Of a DNA stretch of 13,989 bases, positions 1-11,199 are shown in pieces. Source of the DNA: Verrucomicrobiota bacterium (lineage in GTDB: Bacteria; Verrucomicrobiota; Verrucomicrobiia; Chthoniobacterales; UBA10450); NCBI GenBank assembly GCA_003219995.1, contig QHRC01000135.1, positions 4,327 through 18,315 on the forward strand. Direction: 5' to 3'. Every line of letters starts with the position of its first letter. Position 1 is the stretch's first letter. A model generated the notes under the pieces. That model was not told where the DNA came from. It worked only from the letters and a program-made list of their open reading frames with translations, and ran no database searches. Position numbers and translations under genes: made by a program.

Positions 1-2534
1 AACGAAATAGTCGGCGCGTGAAATCCGTAATCCATCAAACGCTTGGCCACGTCTTCCACTTCGACACCGGCGCTCTTCCATTGGCGAAGATCGACAATGC
101 ATTCATGCGCGACAAGTTTATGTTTGCCGTTAAACAGGACTGGGAAACACGAATCGAGTCGCTTCGCGATATAATTCGCATTCAGGATTGCGACTTCACT
201 GGCGCGTTTCAATCCGGCAGCGCCCATCATCCGAATGTACATCCACGAAATCGTCAGAATGCTCGCGCTGCCATAAGGCGCGGCGGCGACCGGACCCACC
301 CGTCTGTTAAGATTGACATTTTCACTGAGGGAAGCTTGAGCCGGTAAAAACTGCGCAAGATGTTTCGCAACGCCAATCGGTCCGACGCCCGGACCGCCGC
401 CGCCATGTGGAATGCAAAATGTCTTGTGCAAATTTAAATGGCAAACATCGGCCCCAAAATCGCCCGGTCGGCAAAGGCCGACCTGCGCGTTCATGTTCGC
501 ACCGTCCATGTAGACCTGGCCGCCGTGCGCGTGCACGATCTCGCAAATCTCGCGGATAGTCGTTTCAAAAACGCCATGTGTGCTCGGATACGTCACCATG
601 AGCGCGGCCAAGTCGCGCGCGTGCTCGTCTGCCTTCGCGCGCAAGTCGGCAAGATCGACATCTCCATCTTTGAGACACGCTACCGCAACGACTTTGAATC
701 CGGCCATGACCGCGCTCGCCGGATTTGTCCCATGCGCAGAAGTTGGAATTAAGCAAACGTTGCGATGCGCTTGGCCGCGCGAGGTATGAAACTCGCGAAT
801 GGCGAGCAAACCCGCGTATTCACCTTGCGAACCGGCATTGGGTTGCAACGAAACCGCGGCAAACCCCGTCATTTCCATCAACCATTCCTCTAGCTGTTGG
901 CACATCTCGATGTATCCGGCCGTTTGATAGGCCGGCGCAAACGGATGCAGTTTCGCAAACTCCGGCCAAGAAATCGGGAACATTTCTGCAGTAGCGTTCA
1001 ACTTCATCGTGCACGAGCCGAGCGGAATCATCGACGTGGTCAGAGAAAGATCGCGCGATTCCAATCGTTTTAGGTAGCGCAGCATTTCCGTTTCTGTGTC
1101 GTGCGTGTTGAAAACGGGATGGGCGAGGAATTCAGAATTGCGGATGGCGGACTGCGGGATGTGTAACCCAGCGGGCTCGGCTGTCGCAGGGAGAGGCGGG
1201 ACGTCTGGGTTACCACCGGATTCGAAGATCGCGGTAATTTTTTGGAAATCACGATCGCTGGTCGTCTCGTCGAATGAAATGCTAATCGCGCCTGGTCCGA
1301 GCTCGCGCAAATTGTAGCCCGCTTTTTGTGCATGTTCCAAAATCGTGGCGCTTGATTCGACCTGGACGCAAACCGTGTCGAAGAAATTTTCGTGCGCGAT
1401 CTTAAAGCCGAGGCTTTTCAGGCGGAAAGCGAGTTTGCCCGTTAGCCGATGGATTCGCTCCGCGATCGCACGCAAGCCGCGCGGGCCGTGATACACCGCA
1501 TACATCGACGCGATAACGGCGAGAAGAACTTGCGCCGTGCAAATGTTGCTCGTGGCTTTATCGCGACGAATGTGTTGCTCGCGTGTTTGCAAGGCGAGGC
1601 GATAAGCAGGTCGGCCTTCGACGTCGTGGGAAACGCCGACCAGACGACCAGGCATGTGTCGTTTGTATTGATCGCGCGTTGCGAAGTAGGCGGCATGCGG
1701 TCCGCCAAACCCGAGCGGAACACCGAGCCGTTGTGTGCTGCCAACCGCAACATCGGCGCCGAACTCGCCTGGCGGCTTCAGCAAAGTGAGCGCGAGAATG
1801 TCCGCCGCGACGACGACGAGCGCGCCGGCATCGTGCGCTTGCCTGACGAATCCAGTATAATCATAAATCGCACCGTCGGTCGCAGGATATTGCACCAGTG
1901 CGCCGAAGACAGTCTCGTCGAGTTTGAACCGCGCGTGATTGTCGATCTTAACTTCGATGCCGAGCGGTTTTGCGCGCGTGCGCACGACTTCGATGGTTTG
2001 CGGATGGCAATTCTCGGCCACGAAGAAAGTTTTCCGGCCGGAAGCGACGGCGTGACAGAGCGTCATCGCTTCGGCTGCGGCCGTTGCTTCATCGAGCAGT
2101 GACGCGTTCGCGATATCGAGCTTCGTAAGATCGACAATCATCGTTTGAAAATTGAGCAGCGCTTCGAGCCGGCCTTGCGCGAGCTCGGCCTGGTAAGGCG
2201 TGTAGGCGGTGTACCAGCCCGGATTTTCGAGAATATTGCGCTGAATGACCGGCGGAGTGATGCAATCGTGATAGCCAGCGCCGATAAACGAGCGCGCGAC
2301 TTTGTTTTTTGAGGCGAGGGCGCGCAACTCGGCCAGCGCTTCGGTCTCCGACTTGGCTTGAGGCAAATCCAATTCTCGATCGAGGCGGATATTTCTTGGC
2401 ACGGTCGCGTCGATCAAGCGTTCGAGATTGTCGAATTCGAGCGCGCGCAGCATTGCGGCGATCTCTTCGTCGTTCGGACCGATGTGGCGACGCGCGAAGG
2501 AATCCGAATGAGAAATTATTTCGCGCACTTGCAT
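1..2534 (-). CDS. gcvP: Glycine decarboxylase (glycine cleavage system P protein), partial: C-terminus beyond left edge
   Basis: PLP-dependent decarboxylase of the cytosolic glycine cleavage system: it decarboxylates glycine and passes the aminomethyl group to lipoylated H protein. The reading frame is open from an ATG at 2534 to the left edge (844 codons), frame-checked at both ends and at several points between. Recognisable blocks in order are [12 protein letters not shown] near residue 15, [14 protein letters not shown], the acceptor-domain block [13 protein letters not shown], and [16 protein letters not shown] with the PLP lysine at about residue 704; the frame ends in FHAPTIS. About 100 C-terminal residues are missing by comparison with the roughly 950-residue family. 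This is the fused P1-P2 form. The frame stays open upstream of 2534 into the REP pair and past the ilvA stop, so the ATG was chosen because it gives a family-like N-terminus; no Shine-Dalgarno precedes it. No gcvT or gcvH is visible. The interdomain linker carries a translated heptamer repeat (1137-1157). Confidence 0.96.
1137..1157. repeat. Three-copy heptamer tandem repeat inside the gcvP linker
   Basis: On the plus strand three consecutive 7-mers read ATTGCGG, ATGGCGG and ACTGCGG. Read as gcvP on the minus strand they encode PQSAIRN. Three heptamers make 21 bases, so the array adds exactly seven codons and keeps the frame. It lies in the poorly conserved linker between the two PLP-fold halves of GcvP. 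Similar heptamer arrays, and PQSAIRN-like peptides derived from them, are known to me from other environmental bacteria, but that comparison is from memory only. Confidence 0.5.
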
Positions 2535-2572: not shown

Positions 2573-2642
2573 TGTAGCCACGGCTCTCTGTCGCCGTGTT
2601 CTTGACCTCGACCCGACGCCCCGACAGAGCGGGGCGACTACA
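2573..2642. repeat. REP pair (REPIN-like): two inverted GTAG-headed hairpins
   Basis: Two 26-base arms face each other, 2573-2598 on the plus strand and 2617-2642 on the minus strand, separated by 18 bases. Each arm starts TGTAG and then folds: stem CACGGC/GCCGTG in the first, CGCCCCG/CGGGGCG in the second, with CTCTGTC conserved in both loops. The arms agree at 18 of 26 positions. Six of the eight differences form three paired changes that preserve Watson-Crick stems. A GTAG head before a hairpin, and inverted pairing of two such units, is the established layout of REP/REPIN elements mobilised by RAYT (TnpA-REP) enzymes. It fills the gap between the ilvA stop (2645) and the gcvP start (2534). 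No RAYT gene is in the window, and copy number elsewhere cannot be judged here. Confidence 0.8.
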
Positions 2643-2644
2643 GA

Positions 2645-3886
2645 CTATTTGGTGTCGTAGGTTTCGACGCCGTGGCTTTTCAATTCGGCGTGCAACTCGG
2701 CGAGATGCTGATGATGTCGCGTCTCGACCGTGCAACGAACATGCACGGCGGAAACATCCGAACTCCCAAATGCGCGATCGTGCACGACTTGTTTGATGCT
2801 CGCTCCGGTGGAGGCGATGCGGGTGGCGAGATCGGCCAGACCACCGGGACGGTCGCTAATGACGGCGGTGAAACGGCAAAGGCGGCCATCGGCAACAAGG
2901 CCGCGCTCGATCACGCGACTCAAAACATTTGGATCGATATTTCCGCCGGAAAGCAGAAGAACAACGCGTTTGCCTGCGAATCTTTTTAGTTTTCCGGAAA
3001 GACAAGCCGCGAGCGGAGTGGCAGCCGCGCCTTCGACGACGCCTTTATCCAGCTCGACCATGCGCAAAATGGAGATCGCGATTTGTTCTTCGGTCACGAT
3101 GACGGTTTTATCGACACGCGCTTGCGCGATTTCGAATCCATTTGCGCCGACTTGCGGAATAGCTAGACCATCAGCCAGGGTCGGGTGCAGCGCGATCTTG
3201 GTCGGTTTGCCCGCTTCAAGGGCGGCCGAAAAGCTGGCCACGTTTTCTGCTTCGACCGCGATGATCTTCGTTTTCGGCCGCAAAGTTTTAATGGCGAGGG
3301 AAACGCCGGCGATCAGACCTGCGCCGCCGACCGGCACGATGACAGCGTCGGCGTCTGGGACCTGGTCAATGATCTCAAGGCCCATCGTTCCCTGTCCGGC
3401 GATAATGGCCGGATCATCGTATCCGTCAATGTAAGCCAGATCTCTTTCTTTCGCGATTTCGTGTGCGCGCGCTTTGGCTTCGGCAAAATCTTTGCCGTGC
3501 AACACGACATTTGCGCCGAGCTTCTGGCAATTGTTGACCTTAATGAGCGGCGCGAATTTTGGCATGACCACAGTCGCCGGAATGCCGAGCAATTTTCCCT
3601 GATAAGCCAGCGCCTGGGCGTGATTGCCAGCCGAAGCCGCGATCACACCGCGCTTCTTCTGCTCGGCAGAAAGTTGCGCAAGCGCGTTGCGGGCGCCGCG
3701 TTCCTTGAAACTCCCGGTGCGTTGCAAATTGTCGAGCTTGCAAAAAATTTCCATGCCGGTGATCTCGCTCAGCGGAATCGACGCGGGGCAGGGAGAATGA
3801 AAAACCGCGCCTTTGATACGGTCGCGCGCCGCTTCGATTTCTTTGAGAGTGATCACGCGCTGTGAATGTTCGCGTAAGACTGACAA
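2645..3886 (-). CDS. ilvA: Threonine ammonia-lyase (threonine dehydratase) with C-terminal ACT domain
   Basis: PLP enzyme deaminating L-threonine (usually also L-serine) to 2-oxobutyrate and ammonia in the cytosol, feeding isoleucine synthesis or threonine breakdown. The fold-type II catalytic domain spans about residues 12-330: TGSFKERGA with the PLP lysine at residue 61, SAGNHAQ at 85-91 binding substrate, the glycine loop PVGGAGL at 185-191 for PLP phosphate, and SGGN at 313-316. A single ACT domain follows (about 336-410, starting [16 protein letters not shown]), giving 413 residues. That is the short, one-ACT class rather than the roughly 510-residue two-ACT biosynthetic IlvA of E. coli, so tdcB-like catabolic use is possible. 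The long frame begins with TTG at 3886; a GTG at 3856 (protein then starting at [10 protein letters not shown]) is equally plausible, and neither has a Shine-Dalgarno. The kinase gene ends 72 bases upstream and gcvP follows on the same strand, beyond the REP pair. Confidence 0.93.
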
Positions 3887-8375: not shown

Positions 8376-9005
8376 TCACTCCGCGATCGCCGCTTGCGCC
8401 GCGGCCAATCGGGCAATCGGGATCCGGAAAGGGCTGCAGCTCACGTAATCCAGACCAAGCCGGTGACAGAACTTGACGCTTGTCGGTTCGCCACCGTGCT
8501 CGCCGCAAATTCCGAGCTTGATGTCGGGCCGCGTTTTGCGACCGAGGTCGCGCGTAATTTCCATTAAACGGCCGACGCCTTTTTGATCGATCGAAGCAAA
8601 TGGATTTGCATCGACAATGTCGAGCTCCGCGTAAGCGGGCAAGAAACTGCCAGAATCGTCGCGGCTCATTCCGAGCGTCGTTTGAGTAAGGTCATTGGTA
8701 CCGAAACTAAAAAACTGCGCGTCCTGCGCGATCTCATCCGCGATTAATGCAGCGCGCGGAATTTCGATCATCGTCCCGACGAGATAATTAAATTTTGTCT
8801 TTTTTTCCCTCGCGACCTCGTCCGCCACGCGATGGACGATGTCGATTTGAAGTTTGAGTTCCCGCGGAAATCCGACGAGCGGAATCATGATCTCAGGGTG
8901 GACCTTGGTTCCTTTGCGTTGGACTTCGGCGGCCGCCTCAAACACGGCGCGAGCCTGCATTTCGGAAATCTCGGGATAAACAATGCCCAATCGGATTAAA
9001 TTCAT
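8376..9005 (-). CDS. ppdK: PPDK C-terminal fragment (downstream frame)
   Basis: Downstream part of the broken dikinase. Genuine family sequence starts at about 8994 with [21 protein letters not shown] and runs to the stop at 8376. It holds most of the PEP/pyruvate-binding barrel: [31 protein letters not shown] and [10 protein letters not shown] with the catalytic cysteine. The frame is open up to an ATG at 9101, but residues before about 8994 are out-of-frame translation of the upstream part. The ATG at 9005 is the closest possible restart and has no Shine-Dalgarno. Alone, this fragment lacks the ATP-binding and phospho-histidine domains and cannot complete the reaction. Confidence 0.7.
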
Positions 9006-11199
9006 GCAACTCGTGCACACGACGTGAAATTTGATCGACTGGCACTCCCAGTTTGTTCGCCAGTTCGTTTTGCTGAGCGTGATCGCTAGGCAAAAATTCA
9101 TGCAGCGGCGGGTCGAGAAAACGAATTGTCGCTGGCGCGCCTTTCAACGCCGTAAAGATGCCGATGAAATCTGCCCGTTGATATGGCAGGAGCTTGGCCA
9201 GCGCTCGCTCTCTTTCTTCCTTCGTCCCGGCGAGAATCATCTCCCGCATGGCATCGATGCGATCGCCTTCGAAAAACATGTGCTCCGTTCGGCAAAGTCC
9301 GACGCCTTCCGCGCCAAACGCGACCGCGTTTGTGACTTGCTCTGGCGTGTCCGCGTTTGTGCGCACCCCGAGAGTCCGGAACTCATCCGCCCAGTTCATC
9401 AATTTTGCGTACTCTTGATAGGTCACGCTTTTCTTCGCGCCGAGCGATCGATCAACCAGCACCTGAACAATCTCCGATGGCGCCGTCGTCACTTCACCGG
9501 CAAAAACTTCGCCCGCGCTGCCATCGATTGAGATGTAATCTCCCTGTTTCAACGTTGTTCCGTCCGCGTTAAGCGTTCGCTTTTGGTAATCGATTTGAAT
9601 ACCGCTCGCACCGCACACGCACACCTTGCCCATTTGACGCGCGACCAAAGCGGCATGCGATGAAACGCCGCCTCGCGCAGTGAGAATGCCCTCGGCCGCG
9701 ATCATGCCACGCAAGTCTTCCGGCGAAGTTTCGATCCGCGCCAGGACCACTTTTTCGCCTTTTTCGGAACGTGCCACTGCTTCTTCCGCGCTGAAAACAA
9801 CATGCCCGCAGGCCGCGCCCGGTCCGGCTGCCAAACCGCTCCCGATCTTTTTTGCTCTGCTCGCCGATTGTCGATCAAAGATTGGTGCGAGCAGATGCGC
9901 GAGTGAATCCGCTGGAATGCGCCGCACCGCTTCTTTTTTCGTAATTAATTTTTCCTCGACCATGTCGACCGCGATCCGAACGGCGGCATGACCAGTGCGC
10001 TTGCCGTTGCGCGTTTGCAAAATGTAAAGACGATTGTCTTCGACCGTGAACTCGACGTCCTGCATGTCTTTGAAATGCCGCTCGAGGAGTGCGCGCACTT
10101 TCATGAGCGATTTGTGCGCGGCCGGCATTTCCTTCGCAAGATCGACAATCGGATGCGGCGTGCGCACACCGGCCACTACGTCTTCACCTTGCGCGTTGAT
10201 TAGATATTCGCCGTAAAAAACTTTTTCTCCGCTCGCTGGATCGCGGGTGAAAGCGACCCCGGTCGCGCTCGTTTCTCCCATGTTGCCGAAGACCATCGTC
10301 TGGACATTGACCGCCGTTCCCCACTCGCGCGGGATGCCGTATTTGCGGCGATAAACAATCGCCCGGTCGTTCATCCATGAACCAAAGACGGCGCCGATCG
10401 CGCCCCAAAGCTGTTCCTTTGCATCTTGTGGAAAGGACTTCCCGGTGCGCTCTTTGATGAGCGCTTTGAAACGCTGCACCAGCGTTTTCAGGTCGGCCAC
10501 AGTTAATCGCACATCCGGAAAATCGTGCTTACCATAACGCTGATCCTTCAAATGCTCGATCACGCTCTCAAACGGTTCGTGATCTTCGCCCGCCCGCTTT
10601 TGCACGCCCATTACCACGTCTCCGTACATTTGGAGAAAACGGCGATATGAATCCCAGGCAAAGCGATCGTTCCTCGTTTGCCTGGCCACGATCTCAACCA
10701 CTTCGTCGTTCATGCCGAGATTAAGGATGGTGTCCATCATTCCCGGCATAGAATCGCGTGCACCCGAGCGAACGGAGACGAGCAACGGTCGCTCCTTGTC
10801 ACCAAGCTTCTTGTCGACCGACTTCTCGACTTTTGCCAGGGCCGCCGTCACTTGGGCTTCCAACTGCGGTGGATAGGTTCGCCTGTGTTCGTAAAAATAA
10901 GTGCAGACTTCCGTCGTGATCGTAAGGCCTGGCGGGACCGGCAAACCAATTCGCGTCATCTCGGCGAGGTTCGCGCCTTTGCCACCGAGCAAAGGCTTCA
11001 TGTTTCCGGCGCCGTCAGCGCGCCCGTCGCCAAAATAATAAACGTAACCTGGCGTTTTTTTTGACACGCCCAAACCTGAACCGCGTTTCGACGCCTGCCG
11101 CGCCGTAGGTCGCCGCGGCGACCGAAGGCGGGTCGATCTTTGCTTCCTCTTTGCCACTCGGCGCACCCGGCGCCTGAGGGATTTCGTTTTTTTGGACAT
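8938..11199 (-). CDS. ppdK: PPDK N-terminal fragment (upstream frame) with basic N-terminal extension
   Basis: A 753-codon frame encoding the ATP-binding domain, the phospho-histidine domain (H515) and the first part of the PEP/pyruvate barrel. After HEFNP (residue 736) it reads 17 non-family residues and stops at 8938. The first 44 residues are unusually rich in Arg/Lys/Ser ([18 protein letters not shown] and similar) and have no counterpart in ordinary PPDK, which starts near the YVYYFGDG motif seen at residues 52-59. A GTG at 11067 would give [13 protein letters not shown], a family-like start, and may be the true one; neither start has a Shine-Dalgarno. If expressed, it would be a truncated protein able at most to do the nucleotide half-reaction. 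Confidence 0.75.
11105..11136. repeat. GTAG-headed 16-base palindrome, possible solo REP
   Basis: GTAG at 11105-11108 runs into the perfect palindrome GGTCGCCGCGGCGACC (11108-11123), followed by GGGTCGA (11130-11136). The same order, GTAG then hairpin then GGGTCGA, occurs in the minus-strand arm of the REP pair (GGGTCGA there at 2614-2608). It lies within the non-family N-terminal extension of the ppdK frame, suggesting that this stretch is really intergenic. Stem and loop sequences differ from the other element, so common descent is uncertain. Confidence 0.4.

Follow-up and report, generated by a model that had tools for sequence, protein, structure and literature searches.

The gap between ilvA and gcvP in a verrucomicrobial genome holds two inverted hairpins that differ from each other by swapped base pairs, and the locus raises the question of how two unlike arms came to be joined and what their difference does. 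The sequence under study, referred to here as the window, is a stretch of 13,989 nucleotides that forms part of contig C26 of the 2.1 Mb, 77% complete assembly G000. The original prediction, made from the letters of this stretch, described a REPIN-like element whose arms had diverged by compensatory changes and whose fold a RAYT (TnpA-REP) enzyme would recognise. The element is a real dispersed hairpin pair linked to a transposase, and the differences between its arms belong to a whole family of repeats.

Results

The left, A-type arm (2573..2598, plus strand; TGTAGCCACGGCTCTCTGTCGCCGTG) consists of TGTAG, the stem CACGGC/GCCGTG and the loop TCTCTGTC, as read in the sequence and seen in folding and covariance-model matches. 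The right, B-type arm (2617..2642, minus strand; TGTAGTCGCCCCGCTCTGTCGGGGCG in the minus-strand reading) consists of TGTAG, the stem CGCCCC/GGGGCG with a G-C closing pair, and the loop CTCTGT. An 18-base spacer (2599..2616) separates the two. In both arms GTAG directly precedes a short stem-loop on its 5′ side, one base away from the stem, and two such units inverted around a short spacer have the layout of a REPIN or GTAG REP dimer. Direct reading thus bears out the predicted pair of inverted 26-base TGTAG hairpins, and base-by-base comparison recovers the eight differences claimed between them, at arm positions 6, 8, 10, 11, 13, 22, 23 and 25, six of which form three stem base-pair swaps at pairs 8-25 (A-T versus G-C), 10-23 and 11-22 (G-C versus C-G). 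Both neighbouring genes lie on the minus strand: ilvA (threonine ammonia-lyase, 2645..3886), whose stop codon (2645-2647, plus-strand CTA) stands two bases away from the element, as had been noted, and gcvP (glycine dehydrogenase, 3..2534, truncated at the window end), whose likely ATG at 2534 has the element 38 bases upstream. Single arms with a few flanking bases fold better than shuffled sequences (z -2.67 with 4/200 shuffles as good, and z -2.40 with 2/200), the whole element on the two strands reaches only z -1.83 and -1.03, and the arm pair is absent from the 25 longest of the 185 inverted repeats in the window. No intrinsic terminator (a GC-rich hairpin followed by a T run) is found at 2573-2642, with two such sites elsewhere in 2400-2800, and no Rfam family matches the element up to E 1, so a terminator or a known RNA family was discarded as its identity. 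Elsewhere in the window, pyruvate phosphate dikinase (8376-11199, minus strand) is divided between two frames that overlap (8938-11199 and 8376-9101), a pattern suggestive of a frameshift or of an error in assembly.

The arms are not unique to this locus. The pattern TGTAGNNRCNNNNCTCTGTC has eight matches in the own assembly, two of them in the ilvA-gcvP element, and the reversed pattern has none, which indicates that the recurrence is not due to chance. With 150 of the 2449 first-look candidates scored, a covariance model built from 13 arms gives at least 42 matches (E up to 10) in the same assembly. Inspected by eye after neighbouring matches had been paired, these yield at least ten complete CTCTGTC-type dimers, on contigs C19, C26, C37, C38, C70, C131, C150, C175, C241 and C268; the second arm is a weak match in the C37 and C70 dimers (E 0.298 and 0.003), and C185 has only one good arm. 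Ten dimers in a 77% complete assembly is a low number for a REP family. By mechanical ORF calls, five of the ten have an ORF edge no more than 6 bases away and five overlap some ORF, the C38 copy among the latter. This copy is an in-frame REPIN dimer at 1474-1528 of locus L026 within argS (68-1816; TIGR00456, 493.8 bits), inside the part that matches the DALR anticodon-binding domain and with the reading frame unbroken.

Beyond the own genome, the covariance model matches 29 of 58 genomes at E up to 0.001 (own included), namely 28 of the 37 from the same bacterial family and one of the 21 from elsewhere in the order, so the REPIN-like character originally proposed is supported by dispersed copies in the own genome and in relatives. 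A dimer pattern open equally to AA, AB and BB, and to spacers of 4-34 bases, detects 65 dimers among the 83 family genomes, spread over 23 of them, and the reversed-pattern control detects none; the spacers in this census, for which only 4-34 bases were permitted, measure 4-31 bases. One genome (G101) supplies 11 of the 65 dimers, some in tandem, so that the copies are not all independent.

The most regular property of the family is the composition of its dimers. All ten dimers of the own assembly, read by eye, pair an A arm, with a CACGGC-like stem, with a B arm, whose stem is mostly CGCCCC- or CGCCTC-like. With stem pair 5 as the criterion (G-C marks an A arm, C-G or T-A a B arm), 58 of the 65 census dimers can be classified and comprise 56 AB, one AA and one BB, the other seven each having one mismatched, unclassifiable arm; removal of three duplicate sequences leaves 53 AB, one AA, one BB and seven unclassifiable. 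Random joining of the 64 A and 59 B arms would yield about half AB. Stem pairs also covary within each type, as A pair 2 is A-T in 45/64 arms and G-C in 13/64 (the other six are G-T or A-C) and B pair 5 is C-G in 31/59 and T-A in 28/59. As the A/B contrast recurs in 56 of 58 classifiable dimers, the original reading of the swaps as compensatory drift inside the ilvA-gcvP element is ruled out, and the swaps of the window are most simply taken as the family contrast, which the element would have inherited. An earlier heterodimer count of 33/35 is loose, as it counts every mismatch among the first six bases of the stem, even one caused by a register shift, and two of its rows overlap in L133. Across RAYT subfamilies of the same bacterial family, 86 loci have arms on both strands; at 71 of these the mean number of differences is two or more per 18 bases, and at 15 it is lower.

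A RAYT gene lies among such arms in two relatives, G020 (L105) and G007 (L106), and the two proteins score 92.1 and 97.1 bits against NCBIfam NF047646 (cut-off 80), with Pfam Y1_Tnp above its cut-off in one of them. The RAYT designated A2 has an HVH motif and conserved tyrosines, which we take to be the Y1 HUH motif, and the best solved-structure match of the RAYT is TnpArep 4er8 (E 2.2e-8). A search of the 83 family genomes gives five genes at 270 bits or more, all five with arms on both sides, the other listed matches scoring 207 bits or less. A second search, of named genomes, gives 13 relatives, ten with arms on both sides, and arm matches at E 0.05 or below are absent from the other three (L149, L151, L152). 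The two sets overlap, as judged by equal match scores and lengths, and together represent ten distinct arm-flanked loci. Nine of the 13 relatives are titled Verrucomicrobia, Spartobacteria or Chthoniobacterales bacterium, in agreement with the verrucomicrobial setting supposed at the outset, and there is one each from Acidobacteria, Lentisphaerae, Kiritimatiellales and the PVC group. The Acidobacteria-titled contig (JAIVJG010000242.1, L144) carries a clade RAYT with the same arms, as a result of either transfer or misbinning. Weaker arm matches of up to 32.5 bits, from related short-loop repeats, also adjoin RAYTs outside the clade, and at two of the ten loci (L146, L147) the arm scores are no higher than this.

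The predicted RAYT link therefore holds for relatives, where RAYT genes are flanked by the same GTAG hairpins and the lineage thus has RAYT homologues, and is not seen in the genus of the window (G000-G003, assemblies 73-87% complete), in which no cognate RAYT is found and the best matches reach 109-177 bits versus 270 or more for the clade. Two more complete genomes, G008 (98%) and G026 (95%), likewise have 29 and 52 arm matches with no cognate RAYT found. Pattern dimers occur in four of the five genomes with a 270-bit gene versus 19 of the 78 without (Fisher p 0.019), and this co-occurrence is a link, not a tight one. The nearest RAYT in the own assembly, on contig C29, is 51% identical, and its flanks carry a heterodimer of a related kind, whose loop has 3 bases. 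Nine Y1_Tnp matches occur in this assembly, seven of them over the Pfam cut-off, and five loci, on C29, C261, C120, C14 and C237 (L010, L011, L013, L014 and L016), have their own, different GTAG hairpins, so that several REP families coexist in this genome.

The two arm types are also mostly fixed in orientation relative to the RAYT. At seven of the ten arm-flanked loci the RAYT sense strand carries the B arms and the antisense strand the A arms (34/34 arms); the exceptions are L111, which is mixed, and L145 and L147, which are A-A. A nearest-neighbour polarity test over 71 heterodimeric loci gives 37 for, 21 against and 13 ties and so lends no support to a universal rule of polarity across all RAYT families, and restriction to unique pairs gives 27, 16 and 12 (p 0.063). 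Gapped scoring, devised after this first result, gives 32 for, 11 against and 9 ties among 52 unique pairs (p 0.001), with 14, 7 and 4 (p 0.095) at a RAYT identity of 70 or more and 9, 2 and 3 (p 0.033) at 75 or more. Agreement in polarity among nearest RAYT relatives thus appears modestly favoured, not universal. In post hoc tallies of hand-defined subfamilies, the loci fully in polarity number 14/14 for CGCTTCGC, 6/6 for TCCGCTG, 3/3 for GCGCGTG, 4/6 for CGGTGCTTG and 3/6 for CCGGSATC; L185 looks reversed for the CGCTTCGC group and was missed by the motif used. With a stricter hairpin finder, five of seven CTCTGTC loci are in polarity, again post hoc, and the other two are the mixed L111 and L137, whose RAYT lies outside the clade.

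The difference between the arms has a marked effect on in silico folding. With DNA parameters, a clover of two separate hairpins is favoured over one long hairpin in 33 of the 65 natural dimers (mean E_long minus E_clover -0.9 kcal/mol), and the element in the window favours the clover (-16.0 vs -12.2). Homodimer constructs made from the same arms never favour it (0/130; mean E_long minus E_clover -20.3 kcal/mol), and after random re-pairing of arms the clover is favoured in 79/150 A-B, 0/150 A-A and 8/150 B-B combinations. RNA parameters favour the clover in only 14/65 dimers. Part of this shift follows from any difference between A and B.

At the ilvA-gcvP site itself, two genomes of the same genus (G001 and G003) have a like element at the same position, in the same B-to-A order, with a spacer that has diverged from that of the window. 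From this shared position and order, the simplest reading is one insertion that would have preceded the split of the three genomes. Other relatives have a different sequence or, in G014, a short gap at this site, and no exact empty site was obtained among the relatives compared. In two genomes of other genera, L157 (G078) and L173 (G006), different GTAG-type hairpin pairs are seen by eye in the ilvA-gcvP gap, as if the site had been reused by such pairs.

Discussion

The element is probably a REPIN that is copied by a RAYT, with two fixed arm types acting as distinguishable ends and a fold close to the balance between clover and long hairpin. Such an element, small, non-autonomous and made of two GTAG-tagged hairpins in inverted orientation, would be copied via single-stranded DNA by the RAYT, a Y1 enzyme of the HUH type, and we infer that the dispersed copies were mobilised in this manner. 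One arm would then be recognisable per DNA strand, with A and B on opposite strands; the text of Corneloup 2021 (PMC8266576) describes TnpA-REP as processing the REP and not the inverted strand. The swapped base pairs would let each arm fold, yet leave A and B pairing poorly with each other because their stems differ by these swaps, and such poor pairing would hold the element near the balance between the two folds. As the fold recognised by RAYTs has been proposed to be the clover rather than the long hairpin (Bertels and Rainey 2011, PMC3116915, Figure S11 legend), the A/B design would govern how frequently the enzyme gains access to the element. Neither excision nor insertion was observed. 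A stronger version, in which the arms are true left and right ends, polarity is kept and the swaps hold the folding balance as a brake on copying, is put forward only tentatively.

It is conceivable, if not the favoured account, that the A-B rule has no function and goes back to a single founding heterodimer, inherited by all copies with arms that rarely recombine. A single founder would give the fixed A-B composition, and the homodimeric RAYT-linked repeats at 15 of 86 loci in the same bacterial family mean that heterodimers are not required in general. Against such simple inheritance, stem pairs have changed within the types, yet the A-B contrast at pair 5 is kept in 56 of 58 dimers, and other subfamilies of RAYT likewise have heterodimers, several of them with polarity in the post hoc tallies. 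It is more doubtful that the asymmetry serves to protect DNA, as proposed in the text of Di Nocera 2013 (PMC3733652), where the weaker hairpins of heterodimers would evade SbcCD-type nucleases; the long hairpin of the homodimer versions, about 20 kcal/mol better than their clover in DNA, agrees with this, whereas the persistence of the homodimeric repeats argues against it and strand polarity is left unexplained. Retention of the element as a stabilising or attenuating structure in an ilvA-gcvP mRNA is improbable, since, for all that G001 and G003 share it and each arm is a stable RNA hairpin, other copies adjoin other genes or lie in frame within argS, the site lacks a terminator-like sequence and more distant relatives lack the element there.

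The REPIN reading places the family among several known systems. It shares with IS200/IS605 ends a Y1 enzyme, single-stranded hairpin ends and ends that can be distinguished. IS200/IS605 ends lie on one strand, whereas the arms of the A-B REPIN are recognisable on opposite strands. The REPINs of Pseudomonas, as presented in PMC3116915, are alike in that a REP doublet is the replicative unit and a long hairpin and a clover are proposed, but the GI REPINs of P. fluorescens are described there as symmetrical, in contrast to the two arm types and near-balanced folds seen here. The y-z BIMEs of Escherichia coli described in Corneloup 2021 (PMC8266576) combine two REP types, and RAYT genes are reported to be flanked by inverted, sometimes dimorphic REPs (Nunvar 2010, PMC2817692), as in the A-B family; the E. 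coli REPs have a stem bulge and lengths of 35, 29 and 37 nt, unlike the A and B arms, which are alike in length and loop and are set apart by base-pair swaps. More than one REP subfamily is reported at nearly half of the sampled genes in the text of Quentin 2018 (PMC6006769).

The closest likeness is to the GTAG REPs of Di Nocera 2013 (PMC3733652), whose text covers HH dimers, exclusive heterodimers and a verrucomicrobial host (O. terrae), and whose HH heterodimers, like the A-B family, have GTAG outside, inverted dimers and unlike stems. Among them, GTAG-3 of Enterobacteriaceae forms exclusive heterodimers and the GTAG-24 dimers of P. aeruginosa join elements with different stems; the stem and loop of the A-B family, its strand polarity relative to the RAYT and its folding balance do not figure in the descriptions in that text. 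Among the matches listed in a literature search, which left aside figures, supplements and most subscription papers, there was no paper on the A-B repeat family or on arm polarity. As REP heterodimers were already published, the family is a new, strict case of a known arrangement; the preference of REPs for heterodimers is given in the text of Di Nocera 2013 as having no obvious explanation. The family offers a clean case of this preference, with arm types distinguished mainly by base-pair swaps, a near-absolute A-B rule, RAYTs accompanied by both arms and mostly fixed polarity, in which two ideas become directly testable, namely that RAYTs distinguish the two ends and that the asymmetry of the arms decides whether the long hairpin or the clover forms.
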